Positions 5,703 to 13,061 are shown, counted from the first letter of the stretch. The stretch: 64,000 nt of DNA from Thiomicrorhabdus sp. Kp2 (GCF_000478585.1 NZ_ARWI01000001.1:1178001-1242000), one strand, 5' to 3'. Made by a program: numbers and translations. The notes: generated by a model not told the origin, from the sequence alone.

Positions 5703-6851
5703 TTAAGCTTGAGACATTTGCTTCTTTAATTGTTTAGCCGCCAAGGCGTACCCCCCTTTATTGGCATCCACAAAGTGAATATGCTCAATACCTGTTTTTT
5801 CCACTAAACAGGTAATTAGCGCGGCATCCGTTAAATGAAAGCCATAAAACAAAGTCCCTTTTTTATAAGCCTCTTCAAGCCAATCTAAGAGCGCTTGCAC
5901 ATTTTCTGAATCACCCGAAAGCACCGCACGAAAGGTATCATCCAACTTCATATAATCGGAATTCACCACCATCTCTTGCTTGTATTTCCCCCAGTCTCCA
6001 TAAGTATTTTTGACTTTAAAGCGCATCCAAAGCTTACCAATCAAGTTCTCAACCCGAATGATTTGTCTCTCCTTCCATTGATGCCATTTGCTTTGATTCT
6101 GACTCTTGGCCAACACTTCCATATTGAGTTTATCTTTATTCAAAGAGAGTGACATACCTTGTACATTTAGAGGGTGGTGAAATTCCACACCCCCTAATAA
6201 ATCCTGAATTTTTTGGTAAACATTTTGATACAGAGAATAAGCTTGCGCCTCTTTTTGTGCTTTAACCAGCAAGCTTAAGGTCACACCACGTTGACTAGGG
6301 ACTTCGTTCCATCGACATTCGAAACCACTAAAATCGGCATTGGATGGTACATTTTTTTCTAAAGCAAATTCAGCGTGGTTTTTTATTAAACTATCTGCCT
6401 CTTCTAAACCACCCCCCATAAAAAAATACTGAACGAGTGACTCTGAAGCTTTATATTTACAAATATTAACAGGCCTGGTAAGTCGATTAACTGGCACTAA
6501 GCCTACTCTAAGTTCTAGCTTTAATGAATCCTTTGAAAGCTCTTGGCACCCTTTTAAAGCTTGCTTAACAACGGTGATTGAATCAGAAGGGATACAAAAG
6601 CTAGCGCCGTCCCCGCCAAAAGCAAAAGGTACTTTTAAAGGTTTAAGCGCATTAAGAACCGCAGCAATCGTACTGCCACCAATGGCATTTATATCTCGAT
6701 AACGCCCCTCCTCAATGGCTTTGGTTGAACCTTTCACATCGGTTATCACAACCCACCAATCATCAGGCAATGGCTGATAAATCTCAGCGTGAAGTCCCTC
6801 TTCTAGGTGGGTTAATACAGCTAGTTCTTGTTCAAAATTAGCGGAACTCAT
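5703..6851 (-). CDS. DUF3095 family protein (class III cyclase-like)
   Basis: 382 residues matching the DUF3095 family. The N-terminal half resembles a class III nucleotide cyclase. WVVITDVKGST at about residues 33-43 supplies a metal-binding Asp after a beta-strand. FAFGGDGASF at about 97-106 is the equivalent of the GD motif around the second metal Asp. The remainder contains family-specific segments such as NTYGDWGKYKQEMV and a C-terminal FHLTDAALITCLV segment. The product would be cytoplasmic. Whether it makes cAMP, cGMP or nothing is unknown; the metal ligands are retained, which makes catalysis possible. It is encoded between a diguanylate cyclase and a divergent glycerate kinase with no clear operon partner. 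Confidence 0.8.
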   Translation of the reverse strand: MSSANFEQELAVLTHLEEGLHAEIYQPLPDDWWVVITDVKGSTKAIEEGRYRDINAIGGSTIAAVLNALKPLKVPFAFGGDGASFCIPSDSITVVKQALKGCQELSKDSLKLELRVGLVPVNRLTRPVNICKYKASESLVQYFFMGGGLEEADSLIKNHAEFALEKNVPSNADFSGFECRWNEVPSQRGVTLSLLVKAQKEAQAYSLYQNVYQKIQDLLGGVEFHHPLNVQGMSLSLNKDKLNMEVLAKSQNQSKWHQWKERQIIRVENLIGKLWMRFKVKNTYGDWGKYKQEMVVNSDYMKLDDTFRAVLSGDSENVQALLDWLEEAYKKGTLFYGFHLTDAALITCLVEKTGIEHIHFVDANKGGYALAAKQLKKQMSQA

Positions 6852-8242: not shown

Positions 8243-8464
8243 ACCAGGCCTGCTCAACCGATTACATTTAATAAGACTGCACCCATTAACTTGTAGGTTA
8301 ATGGCTAGCATCCTTATAACAATCTTCACCAAGTTGTTACCCTAGCGTCATATTTTGGTAACGACATCTCATTAATATACCTAACAACAATTTTGTATAG
8401 TCGTCCCTGCCGTTTACACCCTCTGTAAAAAGCCGACTAAACCACAATCTTAGGTATAAAAGTA
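8243..8464. other. Intergenic region with palindrome copy, hairpin and Pho-type promoter
   Basis: This stretch holds a 10-base copy of the ACCAGGCCTG palindrome directly after the glycerate kinase stop. A 7-bp hairpin follows (CATTAAC/GTTAATG, about 8283-8302). Then comes the Pho-type promoter described separately. The hairpin has no T-run, so I do not call it a terminator. No small gene is seen. Confidence 0.5.
8334..8378 (+). promoter_or_regulatory. Candidate PhoB-dependent promoter of the btaA-like gene
   Basis: Three direct repeats with exact 11-bp period: TTGTTAC (8334-8340), GCGTCAT (8345-8351) and TGGTAAC (8356-8362), each separated by four AT-rich bases. This is the Pho-box layout, in which 7-bp half-sites resemble CTGTCAT or CTGTAAC. 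A TAATAT hexamer at 8373-8378 follows 10 bp after the last half-site, the usual spacing when PhoB replaces the -35 element. The downstream genes are lipid-remodelling candidates, which fits phosphate control. The match is imperfect and experimentally untested. Confidence 0.65.
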
Positions 8465-9757
8465 ATGAACAGCACTTCAGCAATGGATGTAAATGTAGAG
8501 AATAAAAACACGCGTAAACTTTTGGGTTCTGCGGTTAACAACACTTCCATATTTAGTCGCAAAGGCTTTCTTGATAGACTGTTTACCGCTTGGTTTGATC
8601 GTTTGGTCTATCCGCAAATCTGGGAAGATCCAGAAGTGGATATACAGGCTTTACAGTTGAACCATAATTCACGAATTTTTACGATCTCTTCGGGTGGTTG
8701 TAATGTACTTAATTATTTAACAGAACAACCTGAAGTGATTGAGGTCGTTGATTTAAATGAAGCGCACATCGCTTTAATTAAGCTGAAATTGATCGCTATT
8801 CAACACCTGCCTAGCTATGAAGCCTTTTTTGATTTTTTTGGCCGCGCCGATTTACCTAAAAACATAGACCGATACGAAGCTTACATTAAACCAAATTTAG
8901 ATTCTGAAACCCTAAAATACTGGGAGTCTAGAGAAAGACCTTGGAAACAGAAGCGTATTGAATATTTTACCAATGGTTTTTATAAACATGGTTTACTTGG
9001 GCATTTTATTGGTTTAATACATTGGACCAGCAAACGTTTAGGGCATGATATTTCACAAGTCATGCAAGCCCGTACAATGCAAGAACAGCAAGTGCTGTTT
9101 GACCAACATGTTGCTCCTGTATTCGACACAAAACTGCTGAAATTTTTATGCAACCGCTCAATGGTAATGTATAGCCTGGGGATTCCGCCTGCGCAATTTG
9201 AAGAGATGAACCGCGACTCTAAACAAGCCAAAATTGGTATGCATTTACTGCTTAAAGAGCGCGCTCGTCAACTGGCTTGTGACTTCCCGCTAGATCAGAA
9301 CTACTTTGCATGGCAAGCATTTAACCGTGGATATGACATTAAACATCGTAAAGCGGTGCCACGTTATTTAAAAAGCGACCAGTTTGAGGCTTTGCAAAAT
9401 CACGTTAATCAGGTGAATGTCACTCACATTTCCATGACTGAACGCCTTAAAGACCTGCCAGATAACAGCTTAAATGCTTACCTGTTTTTAGACGCTCAAG
9501 ATTGGATGGATGAAACACAACTGACTGAATTATGGCAAGAGGTGAACCGTACCGCTATGCCAAATGCCCGCGTGGTATTTAGAACCGCTGGCGATACTTC
9601 TCCTTTAGAAGAGAAACTGCCGCATTCGATTCTTCAGCACTGGCATACTAACCAAGAAGACAATCAAAACTATACTAAACAAGATCGCTCGGGCATCTAT
9701 GGTGGAGTACATCTCTATATTCATTCCAGCACCACAGAAGGCCAGAAGATACTTTAA
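8465..9757 (+). CDS. btaA: BtaA-like DUF3419 protein (S-adenosylmethionine:diacylglycerol 3-amino-3-carboxypropyltransferase)
   Basis: 430 residues of the DUF3419/BtaA family. Family hallmarks are visible: YPQIWEDPEVD (about 51-61), a SAM-binding region IFTISSGGCNVLNYL (about 74-88) and the acidic motif EVVDLNEAHIALI (about 96-108). BtaA moves the 3-amino-3-carboxypropyl group of SAM to diacylglycerol, giving diacylglyceryl-homoserine, the first step of betaine-lipid synthesis. No N-terminal membrane helix is seen; the enzyme should act at the inner-membrane face. The stop codon overlaps the ATG of the next gene (TAATG), so the two are translationally coupled. The usual BtaB N-methyltransferase is absent from the vicinity. 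A Pho-type promoter lies upstream. Family assignment is strong; the exact lipid product is inferred. Confidence 0.8.
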   Translation: MNSTSAMDVNVENKNTRKLLGSAVNNTSIFSRKGFLDRLFTAWFDRLVYPQIWEDPEVDIQALQLNHNSRIFTISSGGCNVLNYLTEQPEVIEVVDLNEAHIALIKLKLIAIQHLPSYEAFFDFFGRADLPKNIDRYEAYIKPNLDSETLKYWESRERPWKQKRIEYFTNGFYKHGLLGHFIGLIHWTSKRLGHDISQVMQARTMQEQQVLFDQHVAPVFDTKLLKFLCNRSMVMYSLGIPPAQFEEMNRDSKQAKIGMHLLLKERARQLACDFPLDQNYFAWQAFNRGYDIKHRKAVPRYLKSDQFEALQNHVNQVNVTHISMTERLKDLPDNSLNAYLFLDAQDWMDETQLTELWQEVNRTAMPNARVVFRTAGDTSPLEEKLPHSILQHWHTNQEDNQNYTKQDRSGIYGGVHLYIHSSTTEGQKIL

Positions 9758-10848
9758 TGGATATACTGAATCGTTCAATACTCTATGTGAATACCGTAAA
9801 ACAACTTGGTGTCAGCCAAGCCATTTGCAACGTCCAAACCAAACTCGACTTGCTGGTGGTTGATGGAGAACCTGTTCCAACAACACTTAATGACGAAGAA
9901 TTTACCAATAGTTATGTGTGCTCTCCGTATACCGCTTACATCTCCTATGCTGAAGATGAACTTGAGCTGATTCAATCCAAAAGTCAGCGAAACCTGTTTT
10001 TAGGCGCTATTCGCATTGCCGATAAGCTGTTAAAACTGGCCAAAATCAACCAAACACTCTCCATTAACAACTGGTTAGTTTCGACCAACTTACCTCCTAA
10101 ATGGTCTAAAGAAACCGTTCCTAAACTCACCCATAAACTGATTCACCGTTATCCTGTACACAGCTTTAATATTCGCTCTTTAAACTGGCACAATAATGCT
10201 GAGCTCATGCAATCCTTGCAAGACAATGGTTGGCTATTGATTCCAGCAAGACAGGTTTATCTGTTTGATAATCAAGATAGACAGTGGTGGCACAGAAGCC
10301 ACACCAAAAGAGATCAAAATCTATTGCGCAAAACTCAGCTCAAACTCATGGAGCCACATGAACATCAAGAAGCTGATTTTGAGGATATTGTGCACTGCTT
10401 TAATAAACTTTTTATTGAAAAGCACTCGCATTTTAACCCTCAATTTAGCGCAGCGTATTTGTACCAGATGCATAATATCGGTTTAATTCAGTTTTACAGC
10501 TTTAGAAACCCTGAAGACAATAAAATCATAGCCTCCATTGGCTTGTTTACACAGCAAGAGATCATAACCACCCCCATGGTAGGTTACGATACTGAGCAAC
10601 CAAAAGAGCTGGGATTGTATCGTTTGCTGATGGCGGTTTTATTAAAAGAGACGTATGAATCGGGTCAGATGATGAATTTAAGCTCGGGTGCGGGTAGTTT
10701 TAAACGAGCGCGTGGCGGCCTACCTACCATTGAATACACAGCGTTTTATACCAAACACCTTTCATGTTCTCGCACCCTAATTATGCAAGGCTTTGCCAAA
10801 TTATTAAACAAGTTTGCTCCTAAGGTACTTGAAGACAATCAAATTTAA
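9757..10848 (+). CDS. GNAT-like protein coupled to the btaA-like gene
   Basis: 363 residues, not recognised with confidence. The second half (about 175-335) reads like a GNAT/FemAB-type acyl-CoA N-acyltransferase fold. It has a strand-rich segment IIASIGLFTQQEIITTP, then GYDTEQPKELGLYRLLMAVLLKE, matching the position of the acetyl-CoA loop and its helix, then a late strand with MMNLSSGAGSFKRARGG. The N-terminal 170 residues have no recognised domain. The start overlaps the btaA-like stop by one base, which strongly suggests a shared pathway. One reading is that it modifies the free amine of the homoserine head group in place of BtaB methylation. That is inference; a protein-targeting or unrelated acyltransferase role is also possible. 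Confidence 0.5.
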   Translation: MDILNRSILYVNTVKQLGVSQAICNVQTKLDLLVVDGEPVPTTLNDEEFTNSYVCSPYTAYISYAEDELELIQSKSQRNLFLGAIRIADKLLKLAKINQTLSINNWLVSTNLPPKWSKETVPKLTHKLIHRYPVHSFNIRSLNWHNNAELMQSLQDNGWLLIPARQVYLFDNQDRQWWHRSHTKRDQNLLRKTQLKLMEPHEHQEADFEDIVHCFNKLFIEKHSHFNPQFSAAYLYQMHNIGLIQFYSFRNPEDNKIIASIGLFTQQEIITTPMVGYDTEQPKELGLYRLLMAVLLKETYESGQMMNLSSGAGSFKRARGGLPTIEYTAFYTKHLSCSRTLIMQGFAKLLNKFAPKVLEDNQI

Positions 10849-10865
10849 ACCCATAAACCATACTT

Positions 10866-10877
10866 ACCAGGCCTGGT
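10866..10877. repeat. ACCAGGCCTGGT palindrome, full copy
   Basis: Intergenic copy 17 bp after the stop of the GNAT-like gene, extended to the 14-bp palindrome TACCAGGCCTGGTA. Confidence 0.9.
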
Positions 10878-10902
10878 AGATTTGTGGTTAGGAATGTGAA
10901 TG

Positions 10903-10930
10903 AGGGACGGTACCTTTGGGTACCGTCCCT
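10903..10930. terminator. 12-bp perfect hairpin between convergent genes
   Basis: AGGGACGGTACC (10903-10914) and GGTACCGTCCCT (10919-10930) form a perfect GC-rich 12-bp stem with loop TTTG. It lies between the GNAT-like gene and the convergent phosphoesterase gene. It lacks a T-run on either side, so intrinsic termination is uncertain and it could be an mRNA-stabilising hairpin. A second ACCAC...GTGGT hairpin-like stretch follows at 10961-11004. Confidence 0.45.
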
Positions 10931-11011
10931 GCATAATACCCACATAACAAAATGGTTTTAACCACAAAGCAAAAACTCGGCGAAGAGCCGAAGCACAGAG
11001 TGGTCTTTGAC

Positions 11012-11884
11012 TTACTGATTATCGTGATTCACTTCAACCCAACGCAATAACTTGATCTCACCTTCTAAGGTTTCCACAATAGCCGTACAAGACTCAACCC
11101 AATCACCGCAGTTTAAATATTGAATATCGTCAATCATTCTGATTTCTGGGTGATGAATATGCCCACAAATCACCCCGTGAAAACCCTCTTTTTTACAGTC
11201 ATCCACCACCGCCTCTTCGTAAGCTGAAATAAAGGAAACAGCGCCTTTTACCTTTTGCTTAACGTAGGATGACAGCGACCAATAGCCCATACCAAATTTA
11301 CGGCGCAGGTGGTTGAAGTAGCGATTCACAATCACCAATGATTCGTAACCCCAATCACCCATAATCGCTAACCATTTATGGGTTTGTACCACGCTATCGT
11401 ACTTATCGCCATGAATCACCAAAAACCGTTGCCCACGAGCCGATTCAAACACCGCATCATCACACAGAGTAATATTGCCAAAATCCACACCTGAATAACG
11501 ACGTAGAAAATCGTCATGGTTTCCCGTTACGTAAGTCACATCGGTACCACGTTTTGACATGGTTAAAATACGACGGATTACATTGGTATGTGATTGTGGC
11601 CAGTACATACGTTTTTTTAAACGCCAGCCATCAATAATATCGCCAACCAAATAGAGGTTTTTACAATGATTATATTTAAGAAATTCAGCTAAAAATTCAG
11701 CTTTGGCACCCTTACTTCCCAAGTGTGTATCTGAGATAAAAACACTTCTAAACAAGTGTTTTTCATGGTCATTTTCGGCCAAAATAAAATCCGCTTCTGC
11801 GATGGAAGCCATCCAATTTGGAAAACTAATTTCCTCGTTTCCTTGAATGTTTTTTTGATTCAAGTTTTGCGCACTAAATTCCAT
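11012..11884 (-). CDS. plcP: Calcineurin-like phosphoesterase of the PlcP / UDP-2,3-diacylglucosamine diphosphatase type
   Basis: 290 residues with all metal motifs of the calcineurin-like superfamily: SDTHLGS (about 50-56), VGDIIDGW (about 79-86), TGNHDDFL (about 119-126), VIHGDKYD (about 151-158) and GHIHHPE (about 234-240). It resembles LpxH-like diphosphatases, but the context suggests PlcP. That is the phospholipase C-type enzyme that strips head groups from phosphatidylglycerol and phosphatidylethanolamine during phosphate starvation, leaving diacylglycerol for glycosyl or betaine lipid synthesis. It is divergent from an Agt-like glycosyltransferase, with Pho-type repeats between them, and lies near a BtaA-like gene. 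A housekeeping LpxH role cannot be excluded by reading; the extra 40-residue N-terminus and the context favour PlcP. Confidence 0.72.
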   Translation of the reverse strand: MEFSAQNLNQKNIQGNEEISFPNWMASIAEADFILAENDHEKHLFRSVFISDTHLGSKGAKAEFLAEFLKYNHCKNLYLVGDIIDGWRLKKRMYWPQSHTNVIRRILTMSKRGTDVTYVTGNHDDFLRRYSGVDFGNITLCDDAVFESARGQRFLVIHGDKYDSVVQTHKWLAIMGDWGYESLVIVNRYFNHLRRKFGMGYWSLSSYVKQKVKGAVSFISAYEEAVVDDCKKEGFHGVICGHIHHPEIRMIDDIQYLNCGDWVESCTAIVETLEGEIKLLRWVEVNHDNQ

Positions 11885-11919
11885 GTAAACATCTCAAAAA
11901 TAATTAGGGGATTTGAGAC

Positions 11920-11964
11920 AGTCTACAAAGCTTTTTTGACAATAATATGACGCTTGAATGAACT
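11920..11964 (-). promoter_or_regulatory. Candidate PhoB-dependent promoter of the PlcP-like gene
   Basis: Read on the minus strand: AGTTCAT (11964-11958), GCGTCAT (11953-11947) and TTGTCAA (11942-11936) in exact 11-bp period. Ten bases later comes TAGACT (11925-11920) as a candidate -10. GCGTCAT is identical to the central half-site of the btaA-like promoter. The first half-site is weak; the spacing is what makes the case. Confidence 0.6.
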
Positions 11965-11966
11965 AA

Positions 11967-12008
11967 ATATCATTACTTTGTCACTTAGAGTTCATCTACT
12001 TTTAATAC
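11967..12008 (+). promoter_or_regulatory. Candidate PhoB box upstream of the Agt-like glycosyltransferase
   Basis: ATATCAT (11967-11973), TTGTCAC (11978-11984) and AGTTCAT (11989-11995) repeat with 11-bp period on the plus strand, next to the opposite-facing box. A TAATAC at 12003-12008 is a possible -10 but is 7 rather than 10 bp away. This is the weakest of the three candidate Pho promoters. Confidence 0.45.
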
Positions 12009-12029
12009 GTTTCTATTAGATTTGTAACA

Positions 12030-13061
12030 ATGAAAGTAGAAAACCTAAAAAACATTAAGCGACTCACCTTAATTACCGACGCTTGGACACCCCAGGTGAA
12101 TGGGGTTGTGACGACCTTAACAAACCTTATTAAAGAACTTAGAAACCAAGGTGTTAAGGTAGATATTATTCAACCTTCTGAATACAAAAGTTTTCCGTTA
12201 CCGACTTACCCTGAAATTAGATGTGTGTGGCGACCAAAAGGTTTAAATAACCGAATATTAGACTTTAAACCTGATGCTATTCATATTGCTACCGAAGGTT
12301 CTTTGGGCTGGTTTGCCAGACACATTGCTCTTAAAAACAAATTACCATTTACCACGAGTTATCACACTCGTTATCCAGAATACATTCGTGCGCGCATACC
12401 CATTCCTCTAGGCCTTACTTACCGAGTATTACGCTATTTTCACCGCCCAGCACAAAAAACGCTGGTACCAGGCCTGTCTATTTTGCAAGACTTACAGGCA
12501 AAAGCCTTTAACCACTTGACCTTAATGTCACGTGGCGTAGATACAGAGCTTTTTAATCCACAACAGCATCGAGAGCTCGACTATCCAAAACCAGTTATGC
12601 TCTATGTTGGCCGTATTGCCCCTGAAAAGAATATTGAAGCATTTTTGTCATTAGAGATACCAGGTAGCAAACTCATTATTGGCGAAGGCCCAGAACGGGG
12701 AAATTTAACAAAACGCTATCCTCATAGTCATTTTTTAGGGGCTAAATCAGGAAAAACATTAGCCGAATTTTATGCCTCAGCCGATGTCTTTGTTTTTCCT
12801 TCTAAAACCGATACTTTTGGTGTGGTCAATATTGAATCAATTGCATGCGGAACCCCAGTTGCTGCCTATCCTGTAACGGGGCCCAAAGATATTATTACGG
12901 AAGGCTTAAATGGTTCAGTCAATGACGACCTAAAACAAGCCATTAAAACCGCTTTATCCCTACCCAAACAGAATATACACCTCAGCATTCCTCAATTTAA
13001 CTGGCCACATGCCTCCCAACAATTTTTACAAAATCTAAGCCCGATTGATTGGTCTAACTGA
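12030..13061 (+). CDS. GT4-family glycosyltransferase, Agt/SqdX-like
   Basis: 343 residues of the GT-B fold, family GT4. The N-terminus LITDAWTPQVNGVVTTL (about 14-30) is typical of enzymes that glycosylate diacylglycerol or related lipids. The C-terminal nucleotide-sugar site is visible as VGRIAPEKNIEAFL (about 192-205), and the loop ending in DTFGVVNIESIACGTPVAAY (about 265-284) supplies the catalytic EX7E-like glutamates. With a divergent PlcP-like gene it matches the plcP-agt arrangement, in which Agt adds glucose or glucuronic acid to the diacylglycerol made by PlcP. The protein has no membrane helix and should act at the cytoplasmic membrane face. The sugar donor is not predictable here. 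Alternative: a glycosyltransferase of phosphatidylinositol-mannoside type. Confidence 0.75.
   Translation: MKVENLKNIKRLTLITDAWTPQVNGVVTTLTNLIKELRNQGVKVDIIQPSEYKSFPLPTYPEIRCVWRPKGLNNRILDFKPDAIHIATEGSLGWFARHIALKNKLPFTTSYHTRYPEYIRARIPIPLGLTYRVLRYFHRPAQKTLVPGLSILQDLQAKAFNHLTLMSRGVDTELFNPQQHRELDYPKPVMLYVGRIAPEKNIEAFLSLEIPGSKLIIGEGPERGNLTKRYPHSHFLGAKSGKTLAEFYASADVFVFPSKTDTFGVVNIESIACGTPVAAYPVTGPKDIITEGLNGSVNDDLKQAIKTALSLPKQNIHLSIPQFNWPHASQQFLQNLSPIDWSN

Follow-up and report, generated by a model that had tools for sequence, protein, structure and literature searches.

Gene organization of the locus

The window analyzed is a stretch of 64,000 nucleotides (C1:1178001-1242000) of the complete 2.73-Mb genome of Thiomicrorhabdus sp. 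Kp2, whose close relatives among named records belong to Thiomicrorhabdus, Thiomicrospira, and Hydrogenovibrio, sulfur-oxidizing gammaproteobacteria. The genes and promoter features of the locus are summarized in Table 1. The BtaA-like, PlcP-like, and Agt-like assignments of an earlier note on this DNA were all borne out: by DUF3419, by identity to btaA-adjacent phosphoesterases, and by the GT4 family, respectively. Residues 42-418 of the BtaA-like protein aligned to positions 4-383 of 385 in the DUF3419 model. The PlcP-like protein showed 42-50% identity over ~235-255 amino acids to btaA-adjacent phosphoesterases of other gammaproteobacteria, and its scores with the LpxH models (43-53 bits) were far under the cut-offs (134-190). 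In other gammaproteobacteria, 14 of 18 loci had an agt homolog immediately beside plcP. The earlier note had left out gene2, which comes second in the btaA operon; its start overlaps the stop codon of btaA by one base (TAATG), which makes translational coupling of the two genes probable. Elsewhere in the window (5703-6851, minus strand), a DUF3095 protein (PF11294, E 1e-117) is encoded upstream of a glycerate kinase gene.

Table 1. Genes and promoter features of the btaA-gene2/plcP/agt locus (window positions).
Feature	Position	Strand	Remark
Pho-type array, four 7-bp half-sites, 11-bp period (8323, 8334, 8345, 8356)	8323..8362	+	Upstream of btaA
-10-like hexamer TAATAT	8373..8378	+	10 bp past the btaA array; consensus match only
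btaA-like gene, DUF3419 (PF11899), predicted S-adenosylmethionine:diacylglycerol 3-amino-3-carboxypropyl transferase	8465..9757	+	E 1e-103
gene2, 363-amino-acid double-GNAT (FemX/MprF-type) protein	9757..10848	+	Occupies the place of btaB
plcP-like metallophosphoesterase gene, predicted phospholipase C	11012..11884	-	Family match and identity to btaA-adjacent phosphoesterases
-10-like hexamer TAGACT	11920..11925	-	10 bp past the plcP array
Pho-type triple array upstream of plcP	11936..11964	-	Strongest of the three; exact core match
Pho-type triple array upstream of agt	11967..11995	+	Ranked second by the half-site matrix and fifth by the full matrix
TAnnnT hexamer TACGTT	12006..12011	+	10 bp past the agt array; weak
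agt-like GT4 glycosyltransferase gene, predicted diacylglycerol glycosyltransferase	12030..13061	+	Family match and plcP adjacency

Pho-type arrays in the promoter regions

The btaA array reads TTGTTAC-ccta-GCGTCAT-attt-TGGTAAC from 8334 (plus strand), with an extra fourth half-site (TCTTCAC) at 8323, and the ATG of btaA lies 102 bp beyond the end of the last half-site. The arrays of plcP and agt read AGTTCAT-tcaa-GCGTCAT-atta-TTGTCAA from 11964 (minus strand) and ATATCAT-tact-TTGTCAC-ttag-AGTTCAT from 11967 (plus strand), respectively. The three half-site arrays with an exact 11-bp period described in the earlier note were thus all present, and these promoters carry PhoB-type (CTGTCAT-like) half-sites as direct repeats with this period. 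The spacing of 10 bp to a -10-like hexamer also held; its restriction to two of the arrays did not, because TAnnnT followed all three (TAATAT, TAGACT, and TACGTT).

A phoB gene was detected in the genome by a family search (332 bits, above the curated cut-off), and the translations placed phoR, phoU, and pst genes next to it and pstS a few kb off. In most of 30 genomes of the genus, the half-sites of the pstS promoter were in precise 11-bp register (NTGTCAY-N4-NTGTCAT-ATTW-NTGTCAA), and a -10-like TTATGA lay ~8 bp past the array. The earlier note had named beforehand the absence of the array from known Pho genes of this genome as evidence against its reading; pstS of this genome carried it (three 7-bp half-sites, 11-bp period). 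In the stretch examined ahead of pstC (pstC-phoR operon), no strong array was seen. In L021:8789-11571, pstS and a divergent PHO4/Pit-like permease gene have one common intergenic region, with a perfect triple Pho array pointing to pstS.

A half-site matrix was trained on 22 pstS promoter sites of other congeneric genomes, with the genome under study left out, and both strands of the window (127,944 positions) were scanned. The arrays ranked 1, 2, and 4, and rank 3 was the btaA array moved by one repeat, exposing the fourth half-site. The scores of the arrays were 14.4, 9.5, and 8.1, versus 29.0 for the pstS box, and that of the weakest array was matched or exceeded at six of 197,782 positions scanned in its own genome: the three arrays, the shifted btaA array, and two registers of the pstS box. 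When the strict pattern was applied to the whole genome with up to three mismatches, two places only were found, pstS and the plcP array, and the reversed pattern used as a control gave no match. The shorter core pattern gave two exact matches in the whole genome, again pstS and the plcP array; with two mismatches, it was discarded for listing the regulon because of too many chance matches. A pair pattern in the E. coli style carried no information, with 97 matches versus 104 in the control.

When the 350 bp ahead of btaA were scanned in the congeners, the highest-scoring array sat ~40-110 bp before the gene, and its score exceeded the 95% background (0.8) in 16 of the 17 upstream regions available in full; control scans upstream of gene2 and of the neighboring exonuclease gene gave at most 1.1. 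Pho-type arrays above the 99% background also preceded btaA in 12 of 13 cases from the Undibacterium/Vogesella group. Support is weakest for the agt array, with best upstream scores of only -0.1 and -2.8 in the two relatives that have agt beside plcP. This poor conservation, and scores well under that of the pstS box, would be compatible with chance AT-rich repeats in front of genes without Pho regulation. However, chance repeats were rejected on the independent matrix ranks and the strict genome-wide pattern, and the same array at pstS and the conserved arrays of two classes, for which the controls stayed flat, also argue against such an explanation, to which we give a very slight probability. 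We infer that PhoB would bind these arrays, and Pho-regulated lipid remodeling at the btaA-gene2/plcP/agt locus is predicted with high confidence from the sequence. The locus is probably a phosphate-starvation set through which membrane lipids with phosphate would be replaced by others without it, in agreement with the PhoB-dependent remodeling proposed in the earlier note, which the array at pstS supported.

Occupation of the btaB position by gene2

In betaine lipid synthesis, BtaB is needed after BtaA. In other gammaproteobacteria, the DUF3419 gene was often followed by a BtaB-type methyltransferase gene and plcP, and two complete btaA-btaB-plcP examples also had agt nearby. A BtaB-like enzyme was not found in this genome by profile search: the best match was partial and scored 39.6 bits, versus 192-238 bits for held-out true BtaBs. 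Neither was one found elsewhere in the genus (best, 70.7 bits, in a genome without btaA) or in eleven betaproteobacterial genomes with gene2 (best, 50 bits). As a candidate for BtaB or another methyltransferase, gene2 was ruled out because it had no such Pfam or NCBIfam match. Two branches beside PlcP, as described in the earlier note, were supported, but the "betaine-type" reading of one of them was dropped, since the profile searches gave no BtaB-like protein in the genome or the genus and a double-GNAT gene stands in the place of btaB.

btaA adjoined gene2 in all 20 loci examined. Among 37 genomes of the family, both genes were present in 22 and both absent in 15; the co-occurrence corresponds to 1e-10 by a simple count, a strength that is overstated since the genomes are related. 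The pair was also found in Undibacterium, Vogesella, and related betaproteobacteria, and several type strains of Thiomicrorhabdus and Undibacterium carry it, with Thiomicrorhabdus arctica DSM 13458 and Undibacterium pigrum DSM 19792 as examples of cultured carriers; a plcP match was absent from most of the betaproteobacterial loci. In the phylogenetic trees, the gene2-linked BtaAs lay on one side of a branch (support 86/89), beside the BtaB-linked BtaAs, and the btaA-linked gene2s formed one group (99/96) separate from homologs in other contexts. These results suggested that gene2 likely replaced btaB, and the simplest history, which the trees allow, is a single btaB-to-gene2 swap, after which the pair spread vertically or horizontally. 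The genome contains several general S-adenosylmethionine methyltransferases, one of which, although unlinked, might act for BtaB, so that the betaine lipid DGTS would still be made with gene2 in a side role; DGHS itself might also be the product, as BtaA alone is reported to yield DGHS in E. coli (Riekhof 2005, cited in PMC4796936). This is improbable given the low, partial BtaB-profile match, the lack of BtaB in both gene2-bearing groups searched, and the fact that gene2 never occurred without btaA in the family genomes.

Among 46 residues that are invariant in the BtaB-linked BtaAs, 36 are fully kept and the other 10 vary among the gene2-linked sequences; from the kept residues, diacylglyceryl-homoserine (DGHS) is still the expected product of BtaA. 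The locus resembles the plcP-btaAB locus (type 1, Phaeobacter MED193; Sebastian et al. 2015, PMC4796936) in the presence of BtaA together with PlcP, in the predicted Pho boxes, and in phosphorus-free lipids made from diacylglycerol, but differs in that btaB is missing and an unrelated double-GNAT gene takes its place. With the plcP-agt glycolipid locus (type 2, PMC4796936; Methylosinus, PMC9239053), it shares PlcP beside a GT4 glycosyltransferase, whereas the genes here are divergent, each has its own array, and a btaA branch is added. The regulation and the gene families are thus of an already known kind, and the BtaA-gene2 pair is new.

One congener (G007) had two copies each of btaA and gene2 (contigs C102 and C202). 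A metagenome-assembled genome (MAG) labelled Synechococcaceae (L077) contained a Thiomicrorhabdus-like gene2, probably on a misbinned contig, and Ralstonia sp. TCR112 had a gene2 homolog at an edge of six or more contigs (L103, L104, L107, L108, L109, and L110), copies that resemble a repetitive element or the result of faulty assembly.

Structural relationship of gene2 to aminoacyl-tRNA-dependent transferases

No significant Pfam or NCBIfam family match was obtained with gene2 itself; 25 of 49 homologs weakly matched Acetyltransf_6, a family named for GNAT acetyltransferases, and one matched FemAB_like. A profile search against PDB sequences gave chance matches only. The AlphaFold2 model (pLDDT 95.7, pTM 0.92) had full-length matches with Z 12-16 and rmsd mostly 3.2-4.2: the aminoacyl-tRNA-dependent Sbb17/Sba18 (Z 16, rmsd 3.2-3.4), FemX (Z 16.0, rmsd 3.9, 270 residues), and the C-terminal domains of MprF (Z 12-15). 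The tandem acetyl-CoA GNATs scored lower, with rmsd 5-6.5. The CoA pyrophosphate loop of the catalytic domain (motif A, [RQ]xxGx[GA]) was found in none of the 49 homologs, and its place is taken by G-x-Y-R with invariant Y and R; a plain acetyl-CoA N-acetyltransferase is unlikely because this motif is absent. F315-K316 is invariant in 49 of 49 homologs. FemX uses Lys305, and DhpH-C uses the counterpart Lys329 with Phe328 (PMC12945691); judged by pattern, F315-K316 resembles the latter pair.

gene2 is like MprF (aminoacyl-PG synthase) and FemX in its whole-length fold and the lack of the CoA motif, and its invariant FK pair, by pattern, may be a further likeness. It differs in that the identity in the structural alignments is ~8-14%, the 363-amino-acid protein is without the membrane domain of MprF, and the predicted acceptor is DGHS. 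A likeness is also seen to OlsB and the ornithine-lipid N-acyltransferases, GNAT-type enzymes acting on an amino-acid lipid in phosphate-starved bacteria. OlsB is a single GNAT and acts before the O-acylation step, whereas gene2 has a double GNAT fold and its predicted substrate is a diacylglycerol lipid.

Proposed pathway and lipid product

Under phosphate starvation, PhoB would bind the direct repeats with the 11-bp period before btaA-gene2, plcP, and agt and activate all three. PlcP would then take the phosphate-bearing head groups off phospholipids, giving diacylglycerol; Agt would glycosylate part of it, and BtaA would transfer the 3-amino-3-carboxypropyl group of S-adenosylmethionine to another part, giving DGHS. 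gene2 would modify the free amino group of DGHS, in place of the three N-methylations by BtaB known elsewhere, most likely by moving an amino acid from aminoacyl-tRNA, as in FemX and MprF, to form a phosphorus-free aminoacyl-DGHS. The best explanation of the whole, with a probability of approximately 0.55, is that PhoB controls btaA-gene2, plcP, and agt, and that gene2 most likely aminoacylates DGHS. The predicted product is an N-modified diacylglyceryl-homoserine and not a betaine lipid, most likely aminoacylated and otherwise acylated.

We infer DGHS as the acceptor and an amino acid as the donor group, and action of gene2 on the amino group of DGHS is likely. MprF-type enzymes aminoacylate phosphorus-free lipids, diacylglycerol (Lys-DAG; PMC10580965) and glucosyl-diacylglycerol (Lys-Glc-DAG; PMC8893666), which agrees with the proposed aminoacylation of DGHS. 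By analogy with these lipids, the acceptor might instead be the Agt glycolipid, diacylglycerol, or a cell-wall precursor, with co-regulation as the sole tie between gene2 and btaA. Such an acceptor is quite improbable: the strict pairing is with btaA, agt lies beside the locus in two examined relatives only, and most betaproteobacterial btaA-gene2 loci are without a plcP match.

With DGHS as the acceptor, we tentatively propose that gene2 is a new membrane-lipid synthase, MprF-like and aminoacyl-tRNA-dependent, through which phosphorus-free, peptide-bonded aminolipids would replace betaine lipids in phosphate-starved members of the Thiomicrospira group and some betaproteobacteria. BtaA is generally taken as a betaine-lipid marker. 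Here, it is paired with a different enzyme under predicted Pho control, in a lineage across two proteobacterial groups, and a DUF3419 match therefore need not mean a betaine lipid. The locus may make a membrane lipid so far undescribed; if so, this would be a new class of non-phosphorus lipid, and enzymes of the MprF/FemX type would have a new acceptor. In the open-licence literature, we found no description of a BtaA-GNAT gene pair or of an aminoacylated form of DGHS, which is weak evidence of absence.

Homologs of gene2 without btaA lie in a conserved cluster (L105, L121, L149, L092, L095, and L099; ~1.5-9 kb each) spread among Rhodobacteraceae, Rhizobiales, Paenibacillus, and cyanobacteria. 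Its members, parts of which vary, are KAS III, an epimerase-type SDR, a metallo-beta-lactamase-fold hydrolase, an F390-synthetase-like protein, the gene2 homolog, a Rieske protein, and an ATP-grasp-like protein. The KAS III and the F390-synthetase-like ligase in this neighborhood suggest acyl chemistry. Since a fold alone shows no function, gene2 might N-acylate DGHS with a fatty acid taken from acyl-ACP, much as OlsB does with the precursors of ornithine lipids, and the resulting lipid would be anionic and have three chains; the GNAT fold and the Acetyltransf_6 matches of the homologs are consistent with this, and some acyl-ACP-dependent GNAT-like enzymes are without the CoA motif. This is nevertheless less likely than aminoacyl transfer, because the overall shape is nearer to the aminoacyl-tRNA transferases than to the CoA-using tandem GNATs, the CoA loop motif is absent, and the invariant FK pair resembles, by pattern, that of FemX-type enzymes. 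Aminoacyl rather than acyl transfer is thus our preferred, although still doubtful, assignment of the reaction. The F390-synthetase name given above reflects sequence resemblance, with no Pfam match, and one of the clusters (L121), Ruegeria-like in a MAG labelled Flavobacteriaceae, is probably on a misbinned contig.
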